DNA from: Streptomyces chattanoogensis
GTDB taxonomy: Bacteria > Actinomycetota > Actinomycetes > Streptomycetales > Streptomycetaceae
DNA: 64,000 bases
NCBI RefSeq assembly: GCF_001294335.1
Contig: NZ_LGKG01000207.1
Span: 124,001-188,000, forward strand
Direction: 5' to 3'
A program made the translations under genes and the position numbers. Of this stretch, positions 49,643-64,000 are shown in pieces. The notes under the pieces are model-generated. The model searched no databases. It saw nothing but the letters and a program-made list of their open reading frames with translations, and was not told the DNA's origin. The number at the start of each line of letters is the position of its first letter. The first letter of the stretch is position 1.

Positions 49643-51046
49643 TCACGGCCGGTCCGCCACCGGGTAGGGCACGAAGGTGCTGCGGTTCTCGTCGATGGCC
49701 AGTGGCTGCCCCAGGGGCGGTACGGCGCGCTGCGGACAGTCGAGGCGTTCGCAGATGCGGCAGCCCATGCCGATGGGGGTGGCGGCCGCCGTGTTGTCGA
49801 GGTCGAGGCCGTCGGCGTAGACCAGCCGGGAGGCGTGCCGGATCTCGCAGCCGAGGCCGAGGGAGAACGTCTTGCCGGGCTCGCCCCAGCCACCTCGGTG
49901 GCGGGTGACGGCGCGGGCGGTCCACAGATAGCGCTGCCCGTCCGGCATGGCCGCGATCTGGACGTGGATGCGGCCGGGCGCGGCGAACGCCTCGTACACG
50001 TTCCACAGCGGGCAGGTGCCGCCGGCGCGCGAGAAGTGGAATCCGGTGGCGGACTGCCGCTTGGACATGTTGCCGGCGCGGTCGACGCGTACGAAGGAGA
50101 ACGGCACTCCGCGCAGACGGGGGCGCTGGAGCGTGCTGAGGCGGTGGCATACGGTTTCGTAGCCGAGGCCGAAGCGGTCGGTGAGCCGCTCGATGTCGTA
50201 GCGGACCTCTTCCGCGGCGGCGTGGAAGGCGCGGTACGGCAGGATCAGTGCGGCGGCGACGTAGTTCGCCACCCCGATCCGGGCGAGCGACCAGGTGTCG
50301 GAGCCCTCGGCGAAGTCCTCCGCCGCGAGCGCGGACAGTTCGTCGCCGCATTCCAGCAGGGCGAGCTGGGTGGCCATCCGGAAGGCCTGCTGGCCGGGCC
50401 GCAGCCGACTGGACAGATGCAGTACGCGCGCCGCGGGATCGTAGTGGTGCAGCTGCGCCGAATCCGGTGTGATGCGCACCCCGTGACGGGTGACGAGCCG
50501 TGCGGACAGGGCACGGCGGACCTCGCCGGGGCGGATGCCGATGTCGCGGGCGAGGTCCTCTGCCGCCAGGTCGGCGTCGTGGAGGTAGTTCTGCCGCCGG
50601 TAGAAGAACTCCCGGATTTCCTCGTGCGGTGAGCGCGGCAGGGCCGGCTCCTCGGCGTCCCGGCCTTCCGCGGCGACGGCCAGTCGCTGGGTCAGAGCGT
50701 GGTTGCGCCGGCCGAGTTCCAGCAGAGCCGCCGCCACGGCCGGCATCCGGCTCGCCAGCTCCGCCAGGTCGGACGGGGACACCTGGGCGGTGGAGACCTC
50801 GTTCGCGAGGGTTTCGCGCAGATCGGCGACGAGCCTGCTGGTGTCCCGTTCCGAGAAGAAGCTCGCATCCAGACCGAACGTCTCGGTCAGCCGCAGCAGC
50901 ACCGGCACGGTGAGCGGCCGGGAGTCGTGCTCCATCTGGTTGAGGTAGCTGGGCGAGATCTCCAGTCTGCGCGCAAGCTCCGCCTGACTGAGGCGGCGCT
51001 CCTCCCGCAACCGCCGCAACCGTGCACCCGCATAGGTCTTGCCCAT
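49643..51046 (-). CDS. ramB: RamB-like XRE-family transcriptional regulator (acyl-CoA/acetate metabolism)
   Basis: 467 residues. The N-terminal Cro/C1 helix-turn-helix (RLRRLREERRLSQAELARRL, then SYLNQMEHDSRPL) is followed by a long domain of the RamB/Rv0465c kind, including HEEIREFFYRR and ending with a Cys cluster (GCRICERLDC). In actinobacteria such proteins control isocitrate lyase and related acetate genes. The divergent neighbour here is isocitrate lyase, which supports the assignment. ATG 51046 with AAGGGG upstream. Three 9-bp repeats lie in its own leader. Confidence 0.87.
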   Translation of the reverse strand: MGKTYAGARLRRLREERRLSQAELARRLEISPSYLNQMEHDSRPLTVPVLLRLTETFGLDASFFSERDTSRLVADLRETLANEVSTAQVSPSDLAELASRMPAVAAALLELGRRNHALTQRLAVAAEGRDAEEPALPRSPHEEIREFFYRRQNYLHDADLAAEDLARDIGIRPGEVRRALSARLVTRHGVRITPDSAQLHHYDPAARVLHLSSRLRPGQQAFRMATQLALLECGDELSALAAEDFAEGSDTWSLARIGVANYVAAALILPYRAFHAAAEEVRYDIERLTDRFGLGYETVCHRLSTLQRPRLRGVPFSFVRVDRAGNMSKRQSATGFHFSRAGGTCPLWNVYEAFAAPGRIHVQIAAMPDGQRYLWTARAVTRHRGGWGEPGKTFSLGLGCEIRHASRLVYADGLDLDNTAAATPIGMGCRICERLDCPQRAVPPLGQPLAIDENRSTFVPYPVADRP

Positions 51047-51063
51047 CGGAACACCCCTTCAAA

Positions 51064-51090
51064 GTTGGCCATGTTGGCAATCTTGGCAAA
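51064..51090. repeat. Three 9-bp direct repeats in the ramB leader (candidate RamB sites)
   Basis: GTTGGCCAT (51064-51072), GTTGGCAAT (51073-51081) and CTTGGCAAA (51082-51090) follow each other exactly; a further TTGGCA stands at 51115. TTGGCAAA resembles the TTTGCAAA half of RamB boxes known from Corynebacterium, so autoregulation and control of aceA are plausible. Confidence 0.6.
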
Positions 51091-51286
51091 CGGCCGCGGA
51101 AAGACTCGCAGAAGTTGGCATCCTCCCACGCTTGATGACACTCAGTGCCACTGCCAGAGTCTTCGTACGGCCCGCCGACCCGCGCCGGCTCCCGGCTCTC
51201 CGGGCGCATTGCTCACCGTTCCATCCGCCGGACGGGGCGGCGGGCCGTGTTCCAGAAGATGCGGCACCGAGTGACATGACGTTCGC

Positions 51287-51367
51287 ACACTTCACAAGCG
51301 CGGTGCACTTCACCGGCACCGTGCACGTCACCAGCACATGCACCACAGGCGCCACACAGCACTTCAC
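51287..51367. repeat. 18-bp-period repeats of RCACTTCAC upstream of isocitrate lyase
   Basis: ACACTTCAC at 51287, GCACTTCAC at 51305, GCACGTCAC at 51323, a weak copy near 51341 and GCACTTCAC at 51359: a fixed 18-base period over five positions ending 19 bases before the aceA start. Probably a regulatory array. The frames across it are not otherwise protein-like. Confidence 0.6.
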
Positions 51368-51385
51368 GCGATCCGGGAGACGGTC

Positions 51386-52690
51386 ATGACGCAGACAGGG
51401 ACGACGACGGCGACGGCCGAGCAGCTGGCGCAGCGGTGGGCGACCGACCCGCGCTGGAAGGGGATCGAGCGCACCTACCGCGCCGAGGACGTCGTGCGGC
51501 TGTCCGGCAGTGTCCGGGAGGAGCACACCCTGGCCCTGCGCGGCGCCGAGCGGCTGTGGCGGCAGCTGCACGAGCAGGACTACCTTCACGCCCTGGGCGC
51601 GATGACGGGCGGTCAGGCGGTGCAGCAGGTCAGGGCCGGTCTCCAGGCCATCTACCTCTCCGGCTGGCAGGTGGCCGCCGACGCCAACCAGGCCGGCCAC
51701 ACCTACCCGGACCAGAGCCTGTATCCCGCCAACTCCGTTCCGCAGATGGTGCGCCGGATCAACAACGCGCTGCTGCGCGCCGACCAGATCGCCACCGCGG
51801 AGGGCAACGGGGCTGGTTCACCGGACGAGGGCACCGACTGGCTGGCGCCGATCGTCGCCGACGCCGAGGCCGGTTTCGGCGGCCCGCTCAACGCCTTCGA
51901 GCTGACCAGGGCAATGATCGAGGCCGGCGCCGCCGGTATCCACTACGAGGACCAGCTGGCGTCGGAGAAGAAGTGCGGCCATCTGGGCGGCAAGGTCCTG
52001 GTCCCCACGGCACAGCACATCCGCACCCTCAACGCCGCCCGCCTCGCGGCCGATATCGCCGATGTCCCGACCGTGATCGTGGCCCGTACGGACGCACTCG
52101 CCGCCAGCCTTCTCACCAGCGACGTCGACGAGCGTGACGCCCGCTTCTGCACGGGTGAGCGGACCGCCGAGGGCTTCTACCGGGTCCACAACGGCATGGC
52201 GCCGGTCATTGCCCGTGGTCTTGCCTACGCGCCGTACGCCGACCTGATCTGGATGGAGACCGGCACCCCCGATCTCGCCCAGGCCCGCGCGTTCGCCGAG
52301 GCGATCCACGCCGAGCACCCGGACCAGATGCTGGCCTACAACTGCTCGCCGTCCTTCAACTGGAAGGCCGCGCTGGACGACGACCAGATCGCCAAGTTCC
52401 AGCGCGAACTGGCCGCGATGGGCTACCGCTTCCAGTTCATCACCCTGGCCGGTTTCCACTCCCTCAACCACGCGATGTTCGATCTGGCCCGCGGCTACGC
52501 CGAGTCCGGTATGACGGCGTATGTCGACCTCCAGGAGCGGGAGTTCGCCGCCCAGCGGCACGGCTTCACCGCCGTCAAGCACCAGCGGGAGGTCGGCACC
52601 GGCTACTTCGACCAGGTCTCCACCGCCCTCAATCCGGCCTCGTCGACGACCGCACTCACCGGCTCCACGGAGGAGGAGCAGTTCCACTAG
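51386..52690 (+). CDS. aceA: Isocitrate lyase
   Basis: 434 residues. Cleaves isocitrate to succinate and glyoxylate, the first step of the glyoxylate bypass used during growth on acetate or fatty acids. The catalytic loop is KKCGHLGGK with the active-site Cys; metal and substrate residues are in [15 protein letters not shown] and [11 protein letters not shown], and NCSPSFNWK follows. ATG 51386 with GGGAG upstream. Divergent from the RamB-like regulator, with repeats between them. Malate synthase is not in the window. Confidence 0.95.
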
Positions 52691-52825: not shown

Positions 52826-54379
52826 CTACGTTCTGGGACGGGAGCACGGGAGCCGGGACGAGAGCCGAGGCGACGGCTGCAGCAATGCGGCGGTGAGCGG
52901 GTGTTGGGGCGCGGTGCGGAGCCGGCCGGTGGGGCCCTGTTCGACGAGGTGTCCGGCGTCCAGCACGGCGATGCGGTCGGCGAGGGCTGCGGTGTCGTGG
53001 TCGTGGGTGATGAGGACGAGGGACAGGCCAGGGTGGGTCTGCGGCAGGCCGGAGAGGAGGGTGAGGAGGCTCCGGCGGGTGACGGTGTCGAGGCCGGAGG
53101 TGATTTCGTCGCAGATCAGGACCCTGGGGTGGGCCAGCAGGGCGCGGGCCAGGGCGGCGCGCTGGAGCTCGCCGCCGGAGAGCTGTCCGGGTGTGCGGCG
53201 TACGAGGTCGCCGGGGAGGCCGAGGTCGCGCAGCGTGCGTTCGGCTTCGGCCATGGCGTCGGGCGGGGGGACGCGTCGCAGCCGTACGGCGCTGCGCGCC
53301 ACCTGGTCCACGACCGGGCGGTAGTCGTCGAAGGCGGCGCGGGCGTCCTGAAAGACGTACTGCACGGCGGCCAATTGGTCGCGGGTGCGGTGACGGAGGC
53401 TCGGGGGCAGGGCGGTGCCGTCGAGCAGGATCTCTCCGTCGTACGCCCGGTGGAGCCCGGCCAGGCATCGGGCCAGGGTGGTCTTGCCGCTGCCTGAGCG
53501 GCCCATGACGGCCAGGGCGGCGCCGGGGTGCAGGCGCAGATCGGTGGGGTGGAGGACGGTGGTGGTGCGGTGGCGGGCGGTGAGGCCGCGCACCTGGAGT
53601 ACGGCGTTCTGCCTGGCGGGCTCGGAGATGTCCGACGGCTGCGCGGAAGGGGAGTGCGCCAGGAGGTCGCGGGTCCAGGGGTGCCGCGGGGCGAGCCACA
53701 GTCGTTCCGGTGGGCCCGACTCCACGATGCGGCCGTCGCGCATGACGTGGACGTCGTCGGCCAGCGCCCGTACGACCTCCAGGTCATGGCTCAGCAGCAG
53801 TACGGCGATGCCCTGCCGGGTCAGTGCGGCCAGTTGGCCGACGATCTGCTGCTTGGTCAGTGCGTCCTGGCCGGTGGTCGGTTCGTCCGCGACGATGGTC
53901 CTGGCACCGGTCAGAAGGGCCTGGGCGAGCACGATGCGTTGCTGCTGACCGCCGGAGAGCTGATGGGGAAAGCGGCGCAACAGGGCTTCCCCGTCGGGGA
54001 GTTGGGCCTGAGCGAGGGCGTGCAGTACGCGTTGGCGGATGGCGGGGCGGCGGGCGCGGCGGGGCAGATGGCGTACCTGGGTGCGGGCGATGTCCCGGAG
54101 CAGTGCGGCCACCGGCCGGGCGGGGTTGAGGACGGTGGCGGGGTGCTGCGGTACATAGCCGACGGTGGTGGCGGGGACGCGCACCTCGCCGGTGACCCGG
54201 GCGCCGCGGGGGCAGGCGCCGAGGAGGGCGAGCCCCGTGGTGGTCTTGCCGCTGCCGGAGGCCCCGATCAGGGCGGTGATCCTGCCGGGTGGCAGCCGCA
54301 GGCTCACCCCGTCGACGAGGGCCCGGCCGTCGACCTCGACGCGCAGGTCCTGGAGGTGCGCGACGTCGTTCGCGTTCAC
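52826..54379 (-). CDS. Peptide/nickel-type ABC transporter, two ATPase domains in one chain
   Basis: 517 residues with two complete nucleotide-binding domains. The first has GASGSGKTTTG, LSGGQQQR and IVADEPTTGQD; the second has GRSGSGKTTLAR, LSGGELQR and ICDEITSGLD. It therefore replaces the usual pair of DppD/DppF-like proteins and powers the two permeases encoded upstream. GTG 54379 overlaps the permease stop as GTGA. Last gene of a nine-gene minus-strand operon; a terminator lies downstream. Substrate inferred to be the product of this cluster or its metal complex. Confidence 0.92.
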   Translation of the reverse strand: MNANDVAHLQDLRVEVDGRALVDGVSLRLPPGRITALIGASGSGKTTTGLALLGACPRGARVTGEVRVPATTVGYVPQHPATVLNPARPVAALLRDIARTQVRHLPRRARRPAIRQRVLHALAQAQLPDGEALLRRFPHQLSGGQQQRIVLAQALLTGARTIVADEPTTGQDALTKQQIVGQLAALTRQGIAVLLLSHDLEVVRALADDVHVMRDGRIVESGPPERLWLAPRHPWTRDLLAHSPSAQPSDISEPARQNAVLQVRGLTARHRTTTVLHPTDLRLHPGAALAVMGRSGSGKTTLARCLAGLHRAYDGEILLDGTALPPSLRHRTRDQLAAVQYVFQDARAAFDDYRPVVDQVARSAVRLRRVPPPDAMAEAERTLRDLGLPGDLVRRTPGQLSGGELQRAALARALLAHPRVLICDEITSGLDTVTRRSLLTLLSGLPQTHPGLSLVLITHDHDTAALADRIAVLDAGHLVEQGPTGRLRTAPQHPLTAALLQPSPRLSSRLPCSRPRT

Positions 54380-55245
54380 GGGCTGCTCTTCTCGTTTCGC
54401 TTCGGCGTGCGGGAGTCACGGGCTTTACGGGTGTGACGGATGTGTTCGGGTTGCCGGCTCAGCGCCGCATCGACGAGCAGGTTGGTGCCCGTGGTCAGGG
54501 CGACGATCAGCAGGGCGGGCAGCGCGACGGCCCAGGGCTGGACGAACATGCCCGGCCGGTTGCGGTCGACCATCACCGCCCAGTCGGCGGCGTCCGGTTC
54601 GGCGCCGACGCCGAGGAAGGAAGCCGTGGCCACCAGATACAGCACGCCGGTCAGCCGCACCCCGGCGTCGGCGGCGAGCGGGCGCAACGACGAACGGCCG
54701 ACATAGCCGACGGCCATCCGCCACCACGTCTCCCCCTGCATCCGCAGCGCCTCGACCGCCGGGCGGGAGGCCGCCTCGGCCGCGGCGGCCCGGACGGTGC
54801 GGGCCGCGTCGGGGATGTTGACCAGCGCCACCAGGAGGGCGAGGCCCCCGGCGCCTGGCGTCAGGACTGCCGCCACCAGGAGGACGGTCAGCAGCGACGG
54901 CACGGCGAGCAGGATGTCCAGCGGCCGCATCAGCAGCTCTTCGAGCCAGGTGCGTCGGGTCAGCGCGCTGATCAGGCCCAGGGGCAGGGCGACCGCATAG
55001 GCCAGTGCCGTTGCCGCGAGGGCGGTGCTCACGACCGGCTGTCCGCCGAGCAGCACCTGCCGCCAGACATCCCGGCCGACGAAGTCGGTGCCCGCCCAGT
55101 GACCGCCGCCCACCGTGAAGGAAGCGGCCCGCGGTCCGGGCTCCCCGGCGAACAGCGGCCCGAGCAGGGCGAGGAGGAGCGGTACGGCGATGATCAGCAG
55201 GGCGAGCGCACAGCGTCCCGGACCACCCCTGGCGCGGAAGGTCAT
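54376..55245 (-). CDS. ABC transporter permease, DppC/NikC-like
   Basis: 289 residues with about six membrane helices. The N-terminal region has HWAGTDFVGRDVWRQVLLG, the GTDxxGRD segment typical of DppC/OppC/NikC. The central EAA-type loop is around AAAEAASRPAVEALRMQG, contacting the ATPase. ATG 55245 overlaps the upstream permease stop as ATGA. Pairs with the DppB-like permease to form the channel. Confidence 0.9.
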   Translation of the reverse strand: MTFRARGGPGRCALALLIIAVPLLLALLGPLFAGEPGPRAASFTVGGGHWAGTDFVGRDVWRQVLLGGQPVVSTALAATALAYAVALPLGLISALTRRTWLEELLMRPLDILLAVPSLLTVLLVAAVLTPGAGGLALLVALVNIPDAARTVRAAAAEAASRPAVEALRMQGETWWRMAVGYVGRSSLRPLAADAGVRLTGVLYLVATASFLGVGAEPDAADWAVMVDRNRPGMFVQPWAVALPALLIVALTTGTNLLVDAALSRQPEHIRHTRKARDSRTPKRNEKSSP

Positions 55246-56195
55246 GCGGCCACCGCCGCACGCGGTGCGAAGCGGTGAGTGACCAGGTCCGCACCGAGGT
55301 TGAGGAGGACGGCGGTGACGCCGAAGACGAGCGCCAGGCCCTGGATGACGGGGACATCGCGTTCCGCCACCGCGTTCATCAGTACCGTTCCGAGTCCGGG
55401 GATCACAAAGAGGGCCTCTACGACGATGACGCCGCAGAGCAGCCAGTCGACCGTCCGGGCGAGCTGCTGGGCGGCGGGGGCCAGGGCGTTGGGGAGGGCG
55501 TGCGCATAGCGGATGCGGCTGCCCGGGATGGCGCAGCGGCGGGCGTGGGCGACGTACGGCGAGGCCAGCGCGTCGGTCATTCCGGCCCGGATCAGGCGCG
55601 CCAGGGAGCACACCGGGCGGGAGAGGAGGACCAGCACGGGCAGGACGAGTGCCGCGGGGTGGGCGAGGAGATCGTCGCCATAGCCGACGGCGGTCGGCGG
55701 CAGCCAGCCCAGGCGCAGCGCGAAGAGCGCGACCAGCAGCACCCCGAGGGCGAACTCCGGTACGGCGTAGACGCCCAGGGTCAGCGCGCTGATGACCCGG
55801 TCGGCGAGCCGCCCCTCGTGGCGGGCGGCCAGTACGCCGAGGCCGACGGCGGCCGGGATCAGCAGGGCCAGCGTCAGTGCGGCGAGCAGCAGGGTCGGGG
55901 CGAAACCGTCGGCGAGAAGGGAGCTGACCGGCCGGCCCGAGGTCAGTGAACGCCCGAGGTCGCCGTGGAGCAGACCGGCCGCCCACGCGGCGAGCCGCTC
56001 GTGGGCGGGCCGGTCCAGGTGCAGGGCCTCCCGGAGGGCCGCGATCCGCCCGGGGTCGGGCTGGTCACCGGCGAGGGCCACCGCGGCGTCGCCCGGCAGC
56101 GCCTCGGTGAGGGCGAACACGAGCAGCACGACCGCGGCGGTCTGCCCGGCACCGAGCAGCAGCCGCCGGGCCGGCCATGACCACAGTGCGGTCAC
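55242..56195 (-). CDS. ABC transporter permease, DppB/NikB-like
   Basis: 317 residues, six predicted membrane helices. Typical N-terminal ALTEALPGDAAVALAGDQPD and GLLHGDLGRSLTSGRPV segments of DppB/NikB, and the EAA loop near AGMTDALASPYVAHARRC. GTG 56195 overlaps the binding-protein stop as GTGA. Forms the membrane pore with the DppC-like subunit. Confidence 0.9.
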   Translation of the reverse strand: MTALWSWPARRLLLGAGQTAAVVLLVFALTEALPGDAAVALAGDQPDPGRIAALREALHLDRPAHERLAAWAAGLLHGDLGRSLTSGRPVSSLLADGFAPTLLLAALTLALLIPAAVGLGVLAARHEGRLADRVISALTLGVYAVPEFALGVLLVALFALRLGWLPPTAVGYGDDLLAHPAALVLPVLVLLSRPVCSLARLIRAGMTDALASPYVAHARRCAIPGSRIRYAHALPNALAPAAQQLARTVDWLLCGVIVVEALFVIPGLGTVLMNAVAERDVPVIQGLALVFGVTAVLLNLGADLVTHRFAPRAAVAA

Positions 56196-57793
56196 GCGAG
56201 CCACACCTTGTCGAAACGGGCCCAGTCGAGCGTGTTGGCGGGCGCCTTGTGCGCCACGCCGCGGACGGTGCGGGCGGTGCCCAGGATCCAGTCGGCGAAG
56301 CCCCAGACCAGGAAGCCGCCCTCGGTGTACAGGCGGCGCTGCATGCGCCCGAACACGGCGGCCCGGTCCGCCTTGTTCCTGGTGGACTGGGCCTGCCGGT
56401 AGAGCGCGTCGAAGTCCTTGTGCCGCCACTTGGTGGCGTTGGTGGTGGAGGCGCTCAGCAGCCGCTGGGAGAAGTGTGACTCGATGGGCATGGCGCCGGA
56501 GCGGTAGCAGCACAGCGTTCCGGAGTCCAGGGTGTCCTGCCAGTAGCTGTCCTTGCTGCCCGTCCTGACCTTGAGGTGCACCCCGGCCTTGGCGGCCTGG
56601 TCGCGGAAGATCGAGGCGGCCTCGGTGAATCCGGCGGCGACGGCGGAGGTGTCCAGGGTGACCCGGAGCCCGTCGGCACCGGCCTTCTTCAGCAGGTGGC
56701 GGGCCCGGTCCAGGTCCGGCTCGCGCTGGCGCAGGCCGTCCGCGTAGTACTCGTACCCCTTGCCGAACAGGTCGTTGCCGATCTCGCCGGCGCCGGAGAG
56801 CGCGCCGTCGACGAGCTCCTTGCGGTCGGCGATCAGGAAGAACGCCTCGCGTACCCGCTTGTCGTCGAAGGGCGCGCGGTCGGTCTTCATGGCGAAGGCC
56901 TGCATGGCGCTGTGGGGCAGCCGTACGATCTCGATCTGTCCCCTGCCCTCGTGTGCGCGGGCGGTGGTCGGCGTCAGTTCGTGGGCGTACTCGACCTGGC
57001 CGCCCAGCAGGGAGTTGACGCGCGCGGACTCCTCGTTGGCGACCAGGATCTCCAGCCGGTCCAGATGGGGCGGGCCGTCCCAGTAGTCGTCGTTGCGGCG
57101 AAAGACGGCGGACCGTCCGGGCGTGAAGGAGACGAAGCGGAACGGGCCGCTGCCGACCGGGTTCCGGTCGAAGTCCTGCGCTCCTTCGGGGACGATGTAC
57201 GCGCCGAACGCGGCGAGGATGTTGGGGAATTCGGCAGTCGGCCGCTTGAGGACGAACTCGACCGTCCGCGCGTCCCGGGCCCGGCTGGCCTTGAGGTCGA
57301 TGGGCTCCAGGGATGCCTTGGCCCGGAACGCCTGCTTCGGGTCGGCGATGCGGCGGTAGCTGTGGAGGACGTCGCGGGCGGTGACCGGCTTGCCGTTGTG
57401 GAAGGCGGCCTTGCGCAGCGTCACCGTCCAGCGGTCCAGTCCGGCGTTGGGTTCCCAGGACGCGGCGAGGCGCGGTGCGGCGGCGAGGTCTGCTCCGTAG
57501 TCGGCGAGCTTGTCGAAGAGGGCCTTGGCGCGGGCCGCGTCGGCGAAGAGGTTGGTGAGATGCGGGTCGAGGGTCTCGCTCGCGCCGCCGCCCGCGAAGG
57601 CGGCACGCAGGGTGCCGCCGCGCCGGGGCCTGCCGCCGCCGTCGGCGCTGCCGTCGGAGGCGCCGGGGCCGGCGCATCCGGCGAGCGCGAGCGCGCCGGA
57701 TGCGGCCACGCCGCCGGCGGCGGCCAGGAAGCCGCGGCGGTGCAGTCCGGGAAAGCGGGTGTCGTCGACGGGGCCGTGCCGTTGTTCGGTCAT
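56192..57793 (-). CDS. Peptide/nickel-type ABC solute-binding lipoprotein (family 5)
   Basis: 533 residues. Twin-arginine-like signal HRRGFLAAAGG with lipobox ALAG-C (Cys near 40), then a family 5 binding protein (ETLDPHL, DVLHSYRRIADP, VGSGPFRFVSF, RRNDDYW). Relatives bind peptides, nickel complexes or opine-type metallophores such as staphylopine. ATG 57793 has AAGGA upstream. In this cluster it probably recovers the exported product, perhaps with a metal. Confidence 0.9.
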   Translation of the reverse strand: MTEQRHGPVDDTRFPGLHRRGFLAAAGGVAASGALALAGCAGPGASDGSADGGGRPRRGGTLRAAFAGGGASETLDPHLTNLFADAARAKALFDKLADYGADLAAAPRLAASWEPNAGLDRWTVTLRKAAFHNGKPVTARDVLHSYRRIADPKQAFRAKASLEPIDLKASRARDARTVEFVLKRPTAEFPNILAAFGAYIVPEGAQDFDRNPVGSGPFRFVSFTPGRSAVFRRNDDYWDGPPHLDRLEILVANEESARVNSLLGGQVEYAHELTPTTARAHEGRGQIEIVRLPHSAMQAFAMKTDRAPFDDKRVREAFFLIADRKELVDGALSGAGEIGNDLFGKGYEYYADGLRQREPDLDRARHLLKKAGADGLRVTLDTSAVAAGFTEAASIFRDQAAKAGVHLKVRTGSKDSYWQDTLDSGTLCCYRSGAMPIESHFSQRLLSASTTNATKWRHKDFDALYRQAQSTRNKADRAAVFGRMQRRLYTEGGFLVWGFADWILGTARTVRGVAHKAPANTLDWARFDKVWLA

Positions 57794-57855
57794 GGCGATT
57801 TCCTTGCCGAGTAGGTGAGCTGACTGAGTTGACTGGGCGTCAGATTGGCGGAACT

Positions 57856-58641
57856 TCAGGCGGTGAGCCGGGCGATCAGATGCAGCCGGTCCCCGTCGGC
57901 CGTCTCGCCCGCCGGGCCGCTCTCCCGCCAGACGGGTTCGGTACGCGGTCCGGGCCCGTCGTACAGGGCGATCACCTCGAAACCGTGCGCGGCCAGCACG
58001 TACCGCAGCTCCTGGGGAAAGAGCAGCCGCCACGCGGAGCGCTGCTCGACCGGCGGTGAGCCGTCGTCCGCGGTCCATACGCGGATCCGGCGCAGCAGCT
58101 GCGCGGTCCGGTCCACGGACAGGGTGGTGGTGGCGGTGTAGGCGGTGCCCTGCCAGGTGAACCCGCTGACGGACGGGGTGTCGAGCAGCTTTGTACGGCC
58201 GAGGAAGAAGGCGCCGTTGCGCAGCTCGGCGATGAGCAGGCCGCCGGGTACGAGACTGCGACGACAGGAGGCGAGGAAACCGTCCAGGTCGTCGTTGGTG
58301 TGGCAGTACAGCAGGGCGCTGTCCAGGCACACCACGGCGTCGAACTCCCGCTGGGGGAAGGCGAATGCGCGCAGATCGGCGCTGACGTATTCCGGGCCCG
58401 GGTGGTGGGCACGGGCGTACGCCAGCATCGCCTCGGAGAGGTCGGCGCCGACGACCGTACGGCCCGTCCCGTGCAGATGGGCGGCGTCGCGTCCGGTGCC
58501 GCAGCCGATGTCCAGGACGCGCGGTCCCGCGCCGTACCGTCGCAGACAGTCCTCGGCCCAGCGGCCGGCCAGCCGGTCGGGGTCGGGGAAGCGGGCCTCG
58601 TAGAGCACGGGGTTGTCGGTGAGCAGGTTTCCGCTGGTCAT
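57856..58641 (-). CDS. Class I SAM-dependent methyltransferase
   Basis: 261 residues. SAM motif I VLDIGCGTGRD (about 43-53), acidic residue in VVGADLSEAM, motif II ADLRAFAF and motif IV DAVVCLDSALL. It resembles small-molecule N- or O-methyltransferases of natural-product clusters. ATG 58641 overlaps the exporter stop as ATGA. The 62-base gap after it is the only non-overlapping junction in the operon. Acceptor unknown. Confidence 0.88.
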   Translation of the reverse strand: MTSGNLLTDNPVLYEARFPDPDRLAGRWAEDCLRRYGAGPRVLDIGCGTGRDAAHLHGTGRTVVGADLSEAMLAYARAHHPGPEYVSADLRAFAFPQREFDAVVCLDSALLYCHTNDDLDGFLASCRRSLVPGGLLIAELRNGAFFLGRTKLLDTPSVSGFTWQGTAYTATTTLSVDRTAQLLRRIRVWTADDGSPPVEQRSAWRLLFPQELRYVLAAHGFEVIALYDGPGPRTEPVWRESGPAGETADGDRLHLIARLTA

Positions 58642-59915
58642 GTCCTGATTCCTGGTGGTGCGGCGGCCGGCGCCGCCGTTTCGCGTACGGGCAGTCCGCG
58701 CAGCCGGTGCAGCCAGGCGACGCCGGCCGCGGAGACAAGTCCGAAGGCCAGGCAGCAGGCCCACGGCAGCCACTGGTGGTGCGCATGCCGGCCGGTGTCC
58801 ATGGCCCAGCCGATGGCGGTGTTGCCGACCGCCGCGGCGATGCCGGAGACGACGTAGAACAGCCCGAAGTACGTGCCGGTGAGCTCGGCGCGGCCGAAGT
58901 CGGGAATCAGCTCCATCACGAACGGCTGGGCGACCATGACTCCCAGGTAGAGCAGCAGCGCCCCGGCCAGTACGGGCAGCGCGCGCAGTGCGGCGCCGCC
59001 GAGGCCTCCGGGTGCGGGTCCCAGGCCCGCGACCGCCATCGGCGGTACGAAGGCCAGGCCCATCAGGCCGAGTCCCACGCCGATCCACCGCGCCCGGCTG
59101 CCGCGCTTCTTGAGGATGCGGGTGATGCGCATCTGGAGGGCGAGGTTGGCGACGGTGCCGACGAGGAAGACGATGCCGGCCGCGCCGTCCCAGCCGGTGG
59201 CCCGCCGTGCGCCGTCGGGCAGCAGCAGGTACAGCTGGTTCTGCAGCGTGAACATGCCGACCATGGCCAGGGCGAAGGCCAGGAAGACACGGTTGCCCAG
59301 CACTTCGCGCCAGTCGGCGAGGACGCTGCCGGTGGCCGGGGGGACCTCGCGTGCGGGCAGAACGACGGCCTGGGCGAGGGTGAGCAGCGCAAAGATCGCG
59401 GCGGCGGTGAGGGCGGCGGCCCGGAAGTCGACGAGCAGCAGGGCGCTGCCGAGCAGCGGTCCGATCAGCGCGCCGGTGGTCGCGAAGACATTGAAGAGGG
59501 CGAACGCCTCGGCCTTGCGCCCGCCCGCCTCCTGTGCGAGGTAGGCCCGTACGGCCGGGTTGAACAGCGCCCCGGCCAGCCCGCTGAGGACGGACGCGGC
59601 GAGCAGCACGGCCGGTCCGTCGCCGAGCGCGAAGAGCCCGAAGCCGACGGTCCGCAGCGCGCAGCCGGCGATGATGACACCGCGGGCGCCCAGCCGGTCG
59701 GATGCCGAACCGCCGATGAGGAACAGGCCCTGCTGGCTGAGGTTGCGGACGCCGAGCACGATGCCGACGGCCGCGGCGGACATCCCCAGGTCCTTGTCCA
59801 GATGCACCGCGAGGTAGGGAACCAGCAGGTAGAAGCCGGTGTTGACGCCGAGCTGGTTGATCAGCAGCAGGCGGATGGCGAGCGGGAAACGGCGCATTTC
59901 GTGCCAGGTCCTCAC
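58638..59915 (-). CDS. MFS efflux-type transporter
   Basis: 425 residues, 12 predicted membrane helices. The loop after helix 2 is GGSASDRLGARGVIIAG, the MFS signature of drug:proton antiporters. GTG 59915 has a perfect AAGGAGG and overlaps the epimerase stop as GTGA. By analogy with metallophore loci such as cnt (where an MFS protein exports staphylopine and an Opp-type ABC system takes it back) it is the likely exporter. Confidence 0.88.
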   Translation of the reverse strand: MRTWHEMRRFPLAIRLLLINQLGVNTGFYLLVPYLAVHLDKDLGMSAAAVGIVLGVRNLSQQGLFLIGGSASDRLGARGVIIAGCALRTVGFGLFALGDGPAVLLAASVLSGLAGALFNPAVRAYLAQEAGGRKAEAFALFNVFATTGALIGPLLGSALLLVDFRAAALTAAAIFALLTLAQAVVLPAREVPPATGSVLADWREVLGNRVFLAFALAMVGMFTLQNQLYLLLPDGARRATGWDGAAGIVFLVGTVANLALQMRITRILKKRGSRARWIGVGLGLMGLAFVPPMAVAGLGPAPGGLGGAALRALPVLAGALLLYLGVMVAQPFVMELIPDFGRAELTGTYFGLFYVVSGIAAAVGNTAIGWAMDTGRHAHHQWLPWACCLAFGLVSAAGVAWLHRLRGLPVRETAAPAAAPPGIRT

Positions 59916-61000
59916 TGCCCGGCCTCCTTGCCACGGGCTGCCGGCCGGTTGGGGCCGGGCCGGGGCTGCGGCGTCACACCCAGCCCGGGCCGGCCGCTCG
60001 CCCGTACGGTGCCGTCCGTGCCGCCGATCCCGGTCCAGGGGTCGTGGGCGAGCAGCAGATGGCCGTCGAGGTCGGTCCAGCGGGCGCGGTCGGCGAGGTG
60101 GACCGCGGGGGCCAGGCCCAGCGTGCTGGCGGTCAGGCAGCCGAGCATCAGCTCGGTTCCGCTGCCGGCGATCAGTGCGGCGATGCGCAGCGCCGCACTG
60201 ACGCCGCCGCACTTGGCGAGCTTGATGTTGATGCCCTGCACCCGGCCGGCCAGCCGCCGGGCGTCCTCGAGGCCGACCGCGTCCTCGTCGGCGATGACCG
60301 GCAGCGGGGAGCGTGCGGCGAGCCCGGCCAGCGCCTCGGGGTCGCCGGGGGCGATGGGCTGTTCGACGGCCTCGACGCCGAGGTCCGCGTAGCGGGGCAG
60401 CAGGGTTGCGGCCAGGGCGGGTGTCCAGGCGCCGTTGGGGTCGAGCAGCAGCCGGGCGTGCGGTGCGGCGTCGCGTACCGCCCGGACGCGGTCGAGGTCG
60501 TCCTCGGGGTCCGGGGCTCCGGCCTTGATCTTGAGGACGGTGAAGCCGTGCCGGGCCAGCCGGCCTGCCTGTTCCGCGGCCTCGCGGCGCGAGGTGATGC
60601 CGAGGGTGCGGGCGGTGGCGGCGCGCGGCGCTTCGGGGGTGCCGAGCAGCCGGTGCACGGGCGTGCCGGCGCGCTTGCCGACGAGGTCGAGCAGCGCGGA
60701 CTCGACGGCCGCGGTCACCGCCGGGGGCGCGTCCCGGCCGGGCAGTGCGCCGTCCCGCAGCGCGTCCAGGGCGCTTTCGGGGTCGGCGAACCGGACGATT
60801 TCCAGGGACAGTTCGCCCAGCATCCGCTCGATCGTCCGCGCATCGAGCCGGTAGTACGTGCTGCTCACCACCTCCCCGTAGCCGCGCTGTCCTTGGTGCT
60901 CGAGGGACAGCCAGACGGCGTCACGGGCCGCCATCGTGGCGCGGGATATGCGCAGTGGCTCGGCGAGTTCGAGCCGTACGGTGCGCTGACCGACCTTCAC
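59912..61000 (-). CDS. Enolase-superfamily dipeptide epimerase-like enzyme
   Basis: 362 residues. It has every active-site element of the muconate-lactonising/L-Ala-D/L-Glu epimerase subgroup: KIK lysines (VLKIKAG), three metal ligands (LLLDPNGAW, VEAVEQP, VIADEDAV) and the opposite lysine (INIKLAKCGG). Such enzymes invert an amino-acid centre in a dipeptide or N-acyl amino acid. GTG 61000 overlaps the upstream stop as GTGA. Beside an ATP-grasp ligase it may epimerise a pseudo-dipeptide product. Could also be an N-succinylamino-acid racemase-like enzyme. Confidence 0.88.
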   Translation of the reverse strand: MKVGQRTVRLELAEPLRISRATMAARDAVWLSLEHQGQRGYGEVVSSTYYRLDARTIERMLGELSLEIVRFADPESALDALRDGALPGRDAPPAVTAAVESALLDLVGKRAGTPVHRLLGTPEAPRAATARTLGITSRREAAEQAGRLARHGFTVLKIKAGAPDPEDDLDRVRAVRDAAPHARLLLDPNGAWTPALAATLLPRYADLGVEAVEQPIAPGDPEALAGLAARSPLPVIADEDAVGLEDARRLAGRVQGINIKLAKCGGVSAALRIAALIAGSGTELMLGCLTASTLGLAPAVHLADRARWTDLDGHLLLAHDPWTGIGGTDGTVRASGRPGLGVTPQPRPGPNRPAARGKEAGQ

Positions 61001-62121
61001 AGGGCCTCTTTCTCGTTCATGTTCCGGCAGTGGTTCTGAGGGTTCTGCTGCTTCTGATGACCCGTCAGGGGATCGCGGACGGTGCGACATCGCGCCCAGC
61101 CGGTCGCCTCCGCGGCCTGCGGGTGCGGGATCTCGACGGGGCGGGTGGCGGCGCGGGTCGGGTCCAGGCCGTGGGCGGTGGCGAAGTCGTCGTCGTAGAC
61201 GCTGCCGAGGTAGCGCTGCGGCCCGTCGGGGAAAACGGTGGCGACCACGGCTCCGGGGTGGACGCGGGCGGCCCAGGCGGCGACGAGGGCGACCGCGCCG
61301 GTGCTCCAGCCGCCGCTGACGAAGTTCCCGGCGGCGAGCCGGCGGCAGGCGTCGGCGGACTCCGCGGGGCCGACCCAGTGCACCTCGTCGAAGGCGTCAT
61401 AGGCGACATTGCGCGGGTGGATGCTGCTGCCCAGGCCCCGCATCAGCCGGGGCCTGGCGGGCTGCCCGAAGATCGTCGAGCCGGTGGCGTCCACGCCGAT
61501 CAGCCGCAGCCGCGGCCAGTGCCTGCGCAGCGGGCCGATGACGCCCGCGCTGTGGCCTCCGGTGCCGACGCTGCACACCAGGACGTCGAGATGGTCCAGT
61601 GCGGCGGCCATCTCGGCGGCGAGGGAGGCGTAACCGGCGACGTTGTCGGGGTTGTTGTACTGGTCGGGCCAGTACGCGCCGGGCAGTTCGGCGAGGAGCG
61701 CACGCAGCCGGGCCAGCCGCGCGGCCTGCCAGCCGCCCTCGGCCGCGGGCCGGTCGGCCAGTTCGAGCCGGACGCCGTAGGTGCGCAGCAACTGGCGCAT
61801 GGACGGCTCCAGTTCGCTGTCGCCGACCAGCACGACGGGGTGGCCGAGCGCCTGGCCCGCGAAGGCCAGGCCGATGCCGAGCGTGCCGGAGGTGGATTCC
61901 ACCACCGGGGCGCCGGGCCGCAGTTCGCCGCGCTCTCGGGCGCCGAGCAGCATGGACACGGCGGCGCGCGCCTTCATGCCGCCCGCGCCGAGCCCTTCGA
62001 GCTTGGCCCAGAATCCGGGGTGCGGGCAGGGCAGGTCGGTGGTGACACGGGCGAGCGGGGTGCGGCCGAGCAGGCCGAGCAGTTCCCGGTTGCCGGTGGA
62101 GTGCAGGACGGCCGTGGTCAC
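60997..62121 (-). CDS. SbnA/CysK-family PLP-dependent enzyme (second in window)
   Basis: 374 residues of the cysteine-synthase fold. The PLP lysine lies in GAGGMKARAA, the loop is ESTSGTLGIG (where CysK has SGNTG), then QYNNPDNVAGY and VGTGGHSAGV. A C-terminal tail of about 40 residues (ending NMNEKEAL) is extra. The changed loop suggests another nucleophile than sulfide, such as an amino acid giving a C-N bond, as in SbnA. GTG 62121 overlaps the upstream stop. Sequence quite different from the SbnA-like gene at 7.4 kb. Confidence 0.85.
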   Translation of the reverse strand: MTTAVLHSTGNRELLGLLGRTPLARVTTDLPCPHPGFWAKLEGLGAGGMKARAAVSMLLGARERGELRPGAPVVESTSGTLGIGLAFAGQALGHPVVLVGDSELEPSMRQLLRTYGVRLELADRPAAEGGWQAARLARLRALLAELPGAYWPDQYNNPDNVAGYASLAAEMAAALDHLDVLVCSVGTGGHSAGVIGPLRRHWPRLRLIGVDATGSTIFGQPARPRLMRGLGSSIHPRNVAYDAFDEVHWVGPAESADACRRLAAGNFVSGGWSTGAVALVAAWAARVHPGAVVATVFPDGPQRYLGSVYDDDFATAHGLDPTRAATRPVEIPHPQAAEATGWARCRTVRDPLTGHQKQQNPQNHCRNMNEKEAL

Positions 62122-62990
62122 CGGGCGGCTCCGGGCTCCGTGTCGGAGGCCGGGCGGTCCGAGGCCCGGTAGCGGTGCACCGTCCCGGTCCCGCCGTCCA
62201 GCCAGAAGAACGGATACGGCTCCGCGCACACCGCACTCACCCCGGAGCCGAGGAACCGCGGCAGCACCGCACTCCCGGTCTGGGCGAACATGACCAGCGG
62301 TGTGCCGTGCCGCAGCGCATGCTCCCGCAGCGGCTCGAAGGTGCCGTTTCCCAGGGTCATCCCGGAGGCGAGCACCGCATCGCAGCGCTCCAGTTCGGCG
62401 AGCGCATCGGTGCGTACGGGCTCGCCCCACTCCGTCGTACCGCCCTTGAGGTCGCACGGCACATAGGCCAGGCCGCGCTCGCGCAGCGCCTCGAGCAGCG
62501 AGTTGACCACGCCGACCACGAGCACCCGGGCGCCGGGCGCGACATCGGGCAGTCCGGCGACGGCGCGTGCCCTGGCGCGTGATTTCCGCAGGGACGACCC
62601 GGCCGGCAGCGACCAGGGCCGGGCACCGTTCGCGGGCGTATGCGGGAGGACGTGCATCAGATACGCGTCCAGGGCGGCCACCCGTACCGGGCGCAGCTCG
62701 TGCTCCAGGAGGCCGGCGACGTCCGCGCCGACGCAGTCCTCGATCGCGGCGTCCGGCAGCGCGCCGGGCTCCACCGCGCAGCTGCCGACCGCCGCGGCCA
62801 GCCGCAGGCTGAGCACTTCGTTGCGGTAGCCGCCGCTGCGGCCCTCGTGGCGTACGGCCTGCCGGGTGCTGAAGGCCACCGCGATCCGCCGGGTCCGCGG
62901 GTCGGGCCCGAACTCACCGCGCAGGACGCGGGTGACGAGGTCGTCGTAGGAGGTGGCCGCGGCGGGGGCGGTGGTGACGGCCGTGTTCAT
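62118..62990 (-). CDS. DUF364-like (putative heavy-metal chelation) Rossmann protein
   Basis: 290 residues. The C-terminal half has a Rossmann-like fold (ARVLVVGVVNSLLEAL; CDAVLASGMTLGNGTFEPLRE; PLVMFAQTGSAVLPRFL), matching the DUF364 family annotated as putative heavy-metal chelation proteins. The N-terminal half resembles the small domain seen in that family. Its enzymatic role is unknown. ATG 62990 overlaps the ATP-grasp stop; its own stop overlaps the next start. A metal link would suit a metallophore locus. Confidence 0.75.
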   Translation of the reverse strand: MNTAVTTAPAAATSYDDLVTRVLRGEFGPDPRTRRIAVAFSTRQAVRHEGRSGGYRNEVLSLRLAAAVGSCAVEPGALPDAAIEDCVGADVAGLLEHELRPVRVAALDAYLMHVLPHTPANGARPWSLPAGSSLRKSRARARAVAGLPDVAPGARVLVVGVVNSLLEALRERGLAYVPCDLKGGTTEWGEPVRTDALAELERCDAVLASGMTLGNGTFEPLREHALRHGTPLVMFAQTGSAVLPRFLGSGVSAVCAEPYPFFWLDGGTGTVHRYRASDRPASDTEPGAAR

Positions 62991-64000
62991 CGGTTCACCA
63001 CCCGCGGGTGCAGCTCGGCCAGCAGCGCCTCGACGCGACGGCGCGCGCCCGGTCCCTCCGCGTCGCCGGCCATGACATGTCCCAGGTACGCGTTGTTGCT
63101 GCCGGCCTCCTTGACCGCCCTGCCCGGCTCGGCGAGCTGAAGCTCGAGCACGCCGGGTGCCTTGCGCACGAGGTCGCCGCCGTCGACCGCCTCCAGCACG
63201 CCTGCGGTCCCCGGCACGAGGAACCCGATCGCGGCGCTGCGCAGCCCGGTGTCCCGTACGCGCAGATCGGGCCGCTGCCCCAGCGCCACGTCCACACAGG
63301 CAGCGGCCATGTCAACGCCCGTGACATGCCGTATGAGTTCGGTGATGCGGTTGCCCGCCGGCCGCGGATTGACCTCGACGAGGCGGGGTCCGTCGGGCGT
63401 GAGCTTGATCTCGGTGTGCGCCACGACGTCGTCAAGTCCCAGCGCCTTGATCGCCTGTACGGCCGTGTCCTCGGCCGCCGCGGTATCGGCCGCCGGGAGC
63501 GCCGCGGGGAACATATGGCCGGTCTCGATGAAGGCCGGTGCGCCACCGATGCTCTTGTCGGTCACGCCGATCACCTGGGTGCTGTCGTCGAACGTCACGG
63601 TCTCGACGCTGACTTCCGGGCCGTGCAGCAGCTCTTCGAGGAGGACCACGGGCGCCCGGCGCTGGCCGCGCGCGTTGACGGGAAAGCCGTCGAGCGCACG
63701 GTAGGCGCGGGTCAACTCCCCTTCGTCGTCGACGCGTCGTACGTACATGCCCGCACACAGGTCGACGGGCTTCAGCACCAGCGGATAGCCGATCGCCGCC
63801 GCCGCGGCGGCGGCTTCGGCCCGGTCCGCGCAGACCGCGAAGCGCGGGCCGGGCACTCCGGCGTCGGCGAGGACCCGGCGGGTCGTGTCCTTGCGGCAGG
63901 CGTTCTCCACCGCTTCGGGCGCCGGGCCGGGCAGCCCGAGGCGGCCGGCGATCCGCGCGACCGTCGGGAGGTAGTAGTCGCAGGAGGTGAGCACGCCGTC
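62987..64000 (-). CDS. ATP-grasp ligase (5' truncated by window end)
   Basis: At least 337 residues; the frame is open to the window edge, so the true start is outside. ATP-grasp motifs: YPLVLKPVDLCAGMYVRRV (phosphate loop), LLEELLHGPEVSVE, and the metal-binding EVNPRPAGNRI. It belongs to the carboxylate-amine ligases of the carnosine-synthase/BtrJ kind, which join two amino acids with ATP. It is the first visible gene of the operon and would supply the peptide-like bond of the product. More biosynthetic genes may follow beyond the window. Confidence 0.88.
   Translation of the reverse strand, partial: DGVLTSCDYYLPTVARIAGRLGLPGPAPEAVENACRKDTTRRVLADAGVPGPRFAVCADRAEAAAAAAAIGYPLVLKPVDLCAGMYVRRVDDEGELTRAYRALDGFPVNARGQRRAPVVLLEELLHGPEVSVETVTFDDSTQVIGVTDKSIGGAPAFIETGHMFPAALPAADTAAAEDTAVQAIKALGLDDVVAHTEIKLTPDGPRLVEVNPRPAGNRITELIRHVTGVDMAAACVDVALGQRPDLRVRDTGLRSAAIGFLVPGTAGVLEAVDGGDLVRKAPGVLELQLAEPGRAVKEAGSNNAYLGHVMAGDAEGPGARRRVEALLAELHPRVVNR

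Follow-up and report, generated by a model that had tools for sequence, protein, structure and literature searches.

A likely Zur-repressed zincophore operon in Streptomyces chattanoogensis encoding a DUF364 protein and an SbnA-like enzyme

A ten-gene operon of Streptomyces chattanoogensis probably encodes a Zur-repressed zincophore system. Sequence comparison supports the operon structure, protein families with the expected catalytic residues, a recurring Zur-type box, and a conserved exporter and importer. The DUF364 protein and the SbnA-like PLP enzyme of this operon recur together in two gene architectures, and on balance we favor the view that they form the core of a previously unrecognised zincophore class built in both. 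Architecture A combines the pair with an ATP-grasp ligase, an epimerase, an MFS transporter, and an Opp importer; architecture B combines it mostly with a GHMP kinase and a FecCD importer, and in part with an MFS transporter or a methyltransferase. Within the order, 117 of 293 sampled genomes carry one or the other, as do many other actinomycetes.

Operon layout and protein families

The window, a 64,000-nucleotide stretch, covers C207:124001-188000 of the 9.13-Mb genome. The operon lies on its minus strand and runs from 64243, past the window end, down to 52826. The initial annotation described nine coupled genes; their order and families stand, and the number becomes ten:

Gene 1: 62987..64000 in the window, minus strand, likely start GTG at 64243; ATP-grasp, L-amino-acid-ligase-like, 418 aa (PF13535, LAL_C2 PF18603)
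Gene 2: 62118..62990, minus strand; DUF364 protein, 290 aa (PF04016)
Gene 3: 60997..62121, minus strand; SbnA-like PLP enzyme, 374 aa (PF00291; TIGR03945 below cut-off)
Gene 4: 59912..61000, minus strand; enolase-superfamily dipeptide-epimerase-like enzyme, 362 aa (PF13378/PF02746)
Gene 5: 58638..59915, minus strand; MFS transporter, presumed exporter, 425 aa (PF07690)
Gene 6: 57856..58641, minus strand; class I SAM methyltransferase, 261 aa (PF13649)
Gene 7: 56192..57793, minus strand; Opp/Nik-type solute-binding protein (SBP), 533 aa (PF00496)
Gene 8: 55242..56195, minus strand; ABC permease, 317 aa (PF00528)
Gene 9: 54376..55245, minus strand; ABC permease, 289 aa (PF00528)
Gene 10: 52826..54379, minus strand; fused double ABC ATPase, 517 aa (PF00005, two stretches)

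The window ends inside the first gene, whose likely start is 243 bases farther on. Eight of the nine junctions are 4-base ATGA/GTGA overlaps and the remaining one, from the methyltransferase to the SBP gene, is a gap of 62 bp, in agreement with the initial description of all junctions but one as overlaps. By the 3′ end of the operon, window positions 49643 to 52690 hold what we take to be an isocitrate-lyase-like gene and a divergent HTH regulator gene.

The nearest PDB structure to gene 1 is 3vot, the L-amino acid ligase BL00235, and its score against the BacD model (54.2 bits) lies far under the cut-off of 850. Gene 1 shares the ATP-grasp and LAL_C2 domains of BL00235 and BacD, but its operon neighbours differ from theirs. 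Gene 2 exceeds the Pfam cut-off for DUF364 (PF04016; 28.0 bits versus 23) and fits the two-domain fold of this family, an enolase-N domain plus a Rossmann-like domain. The closest relatives of the genome are Streptomyces, with a DUF364 protein of S. chattanoogensis at 96% identity. A heavy-metal role for DUF364 was reportedly proposed in 2010 from structure and gene context, and we know of no assay behind that proposal.

Gene 3 scores 234.5 bits against the SbnA equivalog TIGR03945, short of the cut-off of 349.95, and its nearest PDB structures are those of SbnA (5d84/5d87). Aligned to SbnA, it keeps the PLP lysine and the positions of R132 and Y152, both of which we take to have roles in SbnA, and has a glycine in place of S185. 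The PLP lysine is conserved in 79 of 79 copies from named type A loci (among the best 80 of 285). Gene 4 contains the catalytic lysine pair, three acidic metal ligands, and a DxD motif near the C-terminus, which presumably has the role that it plays in dipeptide epimerases; residues K159, K260, D187, E213, D238, D310, and D312 are kept in 77 to 78 of 79 copies, and the remainder are unaligned there. The importer SBP and permeases all fall under their NCBIfam cut-offs, with Opp5A_nikA the best model for the SBP (138.5 bits, cut-off 600).

Zur-type boxes at the operon and elsewhere in the genome

For S. coelicolor, the Zur motif has been published as tGaNNatSatNNtCa (PMC5472717, in part). The box TGAAAATGATTATCG, which matches 10 of the 11 specified positions of this motif, lies 58-72 bp upstream of the gene 1 start, at an extrapolated window position of 64301-64315 (C207:188301-188315, minus strand). 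By this motif, the promoter region qualifies as that of a predicted member of the Streptomyces Zur regulon, and the operon would be under Zur control. Within 250 bp upstream, a score of at least 9 is reached in 19 of 23 loci versus 1.7% of 1111 control windows, and a score of 10 in 11 of the 23 versus none of the 1111, the control windows being mostly coding DNA. Under mononucleotide shuffling, the upstream DNA reaches a score of 9 in less than 1% of cases.

The same holds across a named set, the best 80 of 285 loci, in which upstream scores reach at least 9 in 56 of 79 loci versus 1.5% of 3394 control windows; 29 loci score 10, versus 0.15% of control windows at 10 or above. Five of the scores of 9 look spurious (three Lentzea, Nocardia S-836, and Micromonospora C95), and the box scores below 9 in 23 of the 79 loci (best 80 of 285), one of which has an N gap. 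No convincing box was found upstream of the Frankia type A loci or of a Rhodococcus plasmid copy. The box lies mostly near -105 to -120 in Streptomyces, at -72 in the operon studied here, and where other genera have a good site it is mostly found near -39 to -71. In an alignment of eleven upstream regions, two rows of which are poorly aligned, it is more conserved than most flanks.

Across the box from the operon is a divergent gene for a TAP-like hydrolase on the plus strand, beyond the window (extrapolated positions 64341-65873; L003:341-1873), whose N-terminus appears signal-like by eye. Of 102 type A loci, 42 retain this gene opposite the operon, among them loci of Streptoalloteichus and Saccharopolyspora. 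The hydrolase may share the Zur-controlled region with the operon and may act extracellularly on peptides or on the ligand.

The strict box pattern TGANAAYSRTTNTCR has three zero-mismatch occurrences in the genome: at the operon and twice in one nonribosomal peptide synthetase (NRPS) cluster, once before an Opp importer that is 31-44% identical to that of the operon and once between an MFS-like gene and an NRPS gene. Among the one-mismatch sites of this pattern are those at two ZnuA loci and at a cobW locus, and in one ZnuA operon a FUR-family gene follows that presumably encodes Zur. When the 21-mer of the operon is made slightly degenerate and up to three mismatches are allowed, its only matches in the genome are itself and a ZnuA promoter. 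The related loci of the genome are as follows:

G000:C137:117500-136500 (L204): NRPS cluster with a thioesterase and a related Opp importer (Pfam); two strict Zur boxes
G000:C186:1-14500 (L205): ZnuA-type ABC locus with a FUR-family gene nearby; also a Zur-like box with one mismatch at a cobW gene
G000:C196:186500-195000 (L203): ZnuA-type ABC locus with a FUR-family gene nearby
G000:C170:1-12000 (L206): SbnB gene (above cut-off) next to a gene for a PLP enzyme with 36% identity to gene 3

The NRPS cluster, which by eye also holds MFS-, CDF-, and znuABC-like genes, is a probable second zincophore cluster of this genome, and its product is perhaps coelibactin-like. The locus on C170 is a separate diaminopropionate-type cluster with no Zur site scoring 10 or above; it holds the sole SbnB over cut-off in the genome, SbnB being absent from the operon. 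A FAD/NAD-binding protein gene and a lactate-permease-like gene are also seen there.

Conservation of architectures A and B

At an E-value of 1e-10, 117 of the 293 genomes from the order have DUF364 relatives, all of these genomes falling within one of nine genera, and a class-wide search gave a match in 30 of 394 genomes and 8 of 137 genera. Type A (DUF364 identity of 72-100%) accounts for 66 genomes and 67 places, of which 20 same-genus loci were fetched. The ten genes stand in the same order in 18 of these 20 and the other two end at contig edges; L052 gives only a partial epimerase match. The named set (best 80 of 285 loci) covers twelve genus names, comprising Actinokineospora, Actinoplanes, Nonomuraea, Micromonospora, Verrucosispora, Frankia, Streptoalloteichus, Saccharothrix, Saccharopolyspora, Lentzea, Streptomyces, and one record labelled Nocardia, and 68 of its 80 loci have all ten genes in order. 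This recurrence of the same genes in the same order means that the arrangement is not due to chance, although related genomes are not independent in these counts and at least four genomes are common to the two sets (L040/L136, L044/L198, L105/L126, and L106/L120). The synteny across genomes that the initial annotation proposed to look for is thus strong. The Rhodococcus sp. ZPP plasmid carries a copy with the same ten genes under generic annotation, and a Streptomyces angustmyceticus plasmid carries a copy with nine annotated genes under generic names.

Contig ends or N interrupt five loci of the named set (L125, L136, L170, L180, and L195), which leaves 75 untruncated. The methyltransferase is the sole missing gene in 3 of the 75 (L131, L154, and L158), so methylation is probably optional. 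Homologues without transporter genes, which the initial annotation had named as evidence against its reading, occur in a minority: 4 of the 75 loci (L128, L147, L178, and L193) lack most or all transporter genes beside the enzymes, and in two of these (L178 and L193) the four core enzymes are present and adjacent transporters absent.

Type B (DUF364 identity of 38-48%) is found in 53 genomes at 55 places, from which 20 Streptomyces loci were fetched. These contain DUF364 (20/20), an SbnA-like enzyme (19/20, the exception being L063), a GHMP kinase (17/20), a FecCD permease (17/20), a FecB-type SBP (15/20), a homologue of the L057 MFS transporter (8/20), and a small methyltransferase (6/20). 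The five type B PLP enzymes that were scanned are 25-33% identical to gene 3, and all have SbnA as their best model at 124-137 bits (cut-off 350), versus at most 86 for cysteine synthase models. Beyond the order, thirteen type B loci from other actinomycete families (L107-L119) encode DUF364 and an SbnA-like enzyme in every case, a methyltransferase in 12, and a GHMP kinase in 11, and 11 of the 13 have a Zur-type site scoring at least 10. A related cluster (L209) is also seen on a Tsukamurella plasmid, where the best nearby site scores 9.

Across these two groups of type B loci, 38 Zur-type sites scoring at least 10 occur in 22 of 33 loci, with 11 loci having none at that score, and type A has 57 sites, spread over 46 of its 102 loci; the reversed motif gives none in either type, and these counts may include a few intragenic sites and count some genomes twice. 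Both architectures occur together in 2 genomes versus 11.9 expected among 293 (hypergeometric P of 6e-5, uncorrected for phylogeny). This rarity points to A and B as alternative zincophores with DUF364 and the SbnA-like enzyme as their common core.

Proposed route, known systems, and alternatives

Zur binding, the substrates, the order of steps, the product, and the metal are inferred as follows. When zinc is scarce, Zur would leave the box and the operon would be transcribed as one unit. The SbnA-like enzyme would take an activated serine, either O-phospho- or O-acetyl-serine, and link its β-carbon to the amino group of another amino acid, yielding an aminopolycarboxylate like the product of SbnA; this would be kept whole because SbnB is missing from the operon. 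The ATP-grasp ligase would add an amide-bonded amino acid, the epimerase would invert the α-carbon of the dipeptide-like unit, and DUF364 would carry out a step linked to the SbnA-type product, either a condensation or a tailoring reaction. The methyltransferase would methylate in most strains, and an epimerised, methylated pseudo-dipeptide is a plausible, putative product. The ligand would then leave through the MFS pump, and its metal complex would be captured by the SBP and brought back by the Opp-type ABC importer. The strong synteny and the Zur-type box lend support to the initial proposal of a metallophore that is made, exported, and recaptured.

Opine-type zincophores (staphylopine, pseudopaline, bacillopaline, and yersinopine) likewise combine synthesis, MFS export, and Opp-type import in one locus. 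Opine-type clusters are of two main types, MFS with Opp and EamA with FecCD, and actinomycete subtypes have MFS with FecCD and an extra methyltransferase; these transporter combinations resemble those of types A and B (PMC7438024, in part). The operon differs in its core of DUF364, SbnA-like enzyme, ATP-grasp ligase, and epimerase. No nicotianamine-synthase-like or opine dehydrogenase family is listed among the family profiles of the ten proteins, and the words ATP-grasp and Streptomyces were not found in the main text of PMC7438024. The predicted Zur control is shared with the EDDS pathway, an actinomycete metallophore of Amycolatopsis japonicum (PMC6103462, in part), and with coelibactin-type clusters (PMC5472717 and PMC6103462, each in part). 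The latter contain NRPS, whereas Pfam detects no NRPS modules in the ten proteins of the operon. In staphyloferrin B synthesis SbnA is accompanied by SbnB, whereas here gene 3 aligns to SbnA in an operon without SbnB. A search for a published description of this enzyme route found none, and DUF364 with the SbnA-like enzyme is probably the signature of a pathway distinct from the opine and NRPS types.

Alternatively, a Zur-controlled operon could make a dipeptide-like antibiotic or signal and import that product or another peptide, with no metal carrier involved. The kinship of gene 1 with the L-amino acid ligases BL00235 and BacD, the dipeptide-epimerase fold of gene 4, and the two loci with core enzymes but no adjacent transporters are consistent with this reading. 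It is nonetheless unlikely, given that exporter and importer occur together in 68 of 80 loci (best 80 of 285), that the box is common to ZnuA loci, and that the same DUF364 and SbnA-like pair recurs in another Zur-boxed architecture, in which the importer is mostly of the FecCD type.

Less probable still is a nickel or cobalt metallophore, or an importer of nickel, controlled by Nur or some other regulator. Nik/Opp nickel models do rank first or nearly first for the importer subunits, every score being under the cut-off, but the best Nur-like repeat upstream of the operon matches 7 of 10 specified bases, no riboswitch was found there, and the box that is present is of the type found at ZnuA loci. 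The initial suggestion of "possibly Ni, Co or Zn" is therefore narrowed to zinc by the Zur-type box, which was one of the two boxes proposed as a check and which recurs in relatives. A siderophore system under the iron regulator DmdR1, suggested by the service of SbnA in staphyloferrin B synthesis (PMC9598555, in part), is the least credible, as the best iron box upstream of the operon matches 9 of 19 positions and those of the 20 Streptomyces type B loci never exceed the best of 20 shuffles; beyond the order, L115 has one match of 15 of 19, about 7 kb from its DUF364 gene.

If the zincophore reading is true, DUF364 would gain a metallophore-forming role, giving a domain of unknown function a testable catalytic role, and a common zinc-acquisition route of soil actinomycetes would have been overlooked. 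Zinc starvation would then be a defined trigger for switching on the pathway and finding its product, and DUF364 with the SbnA-like enzyme would serve as a two-gene marker for genome mining.
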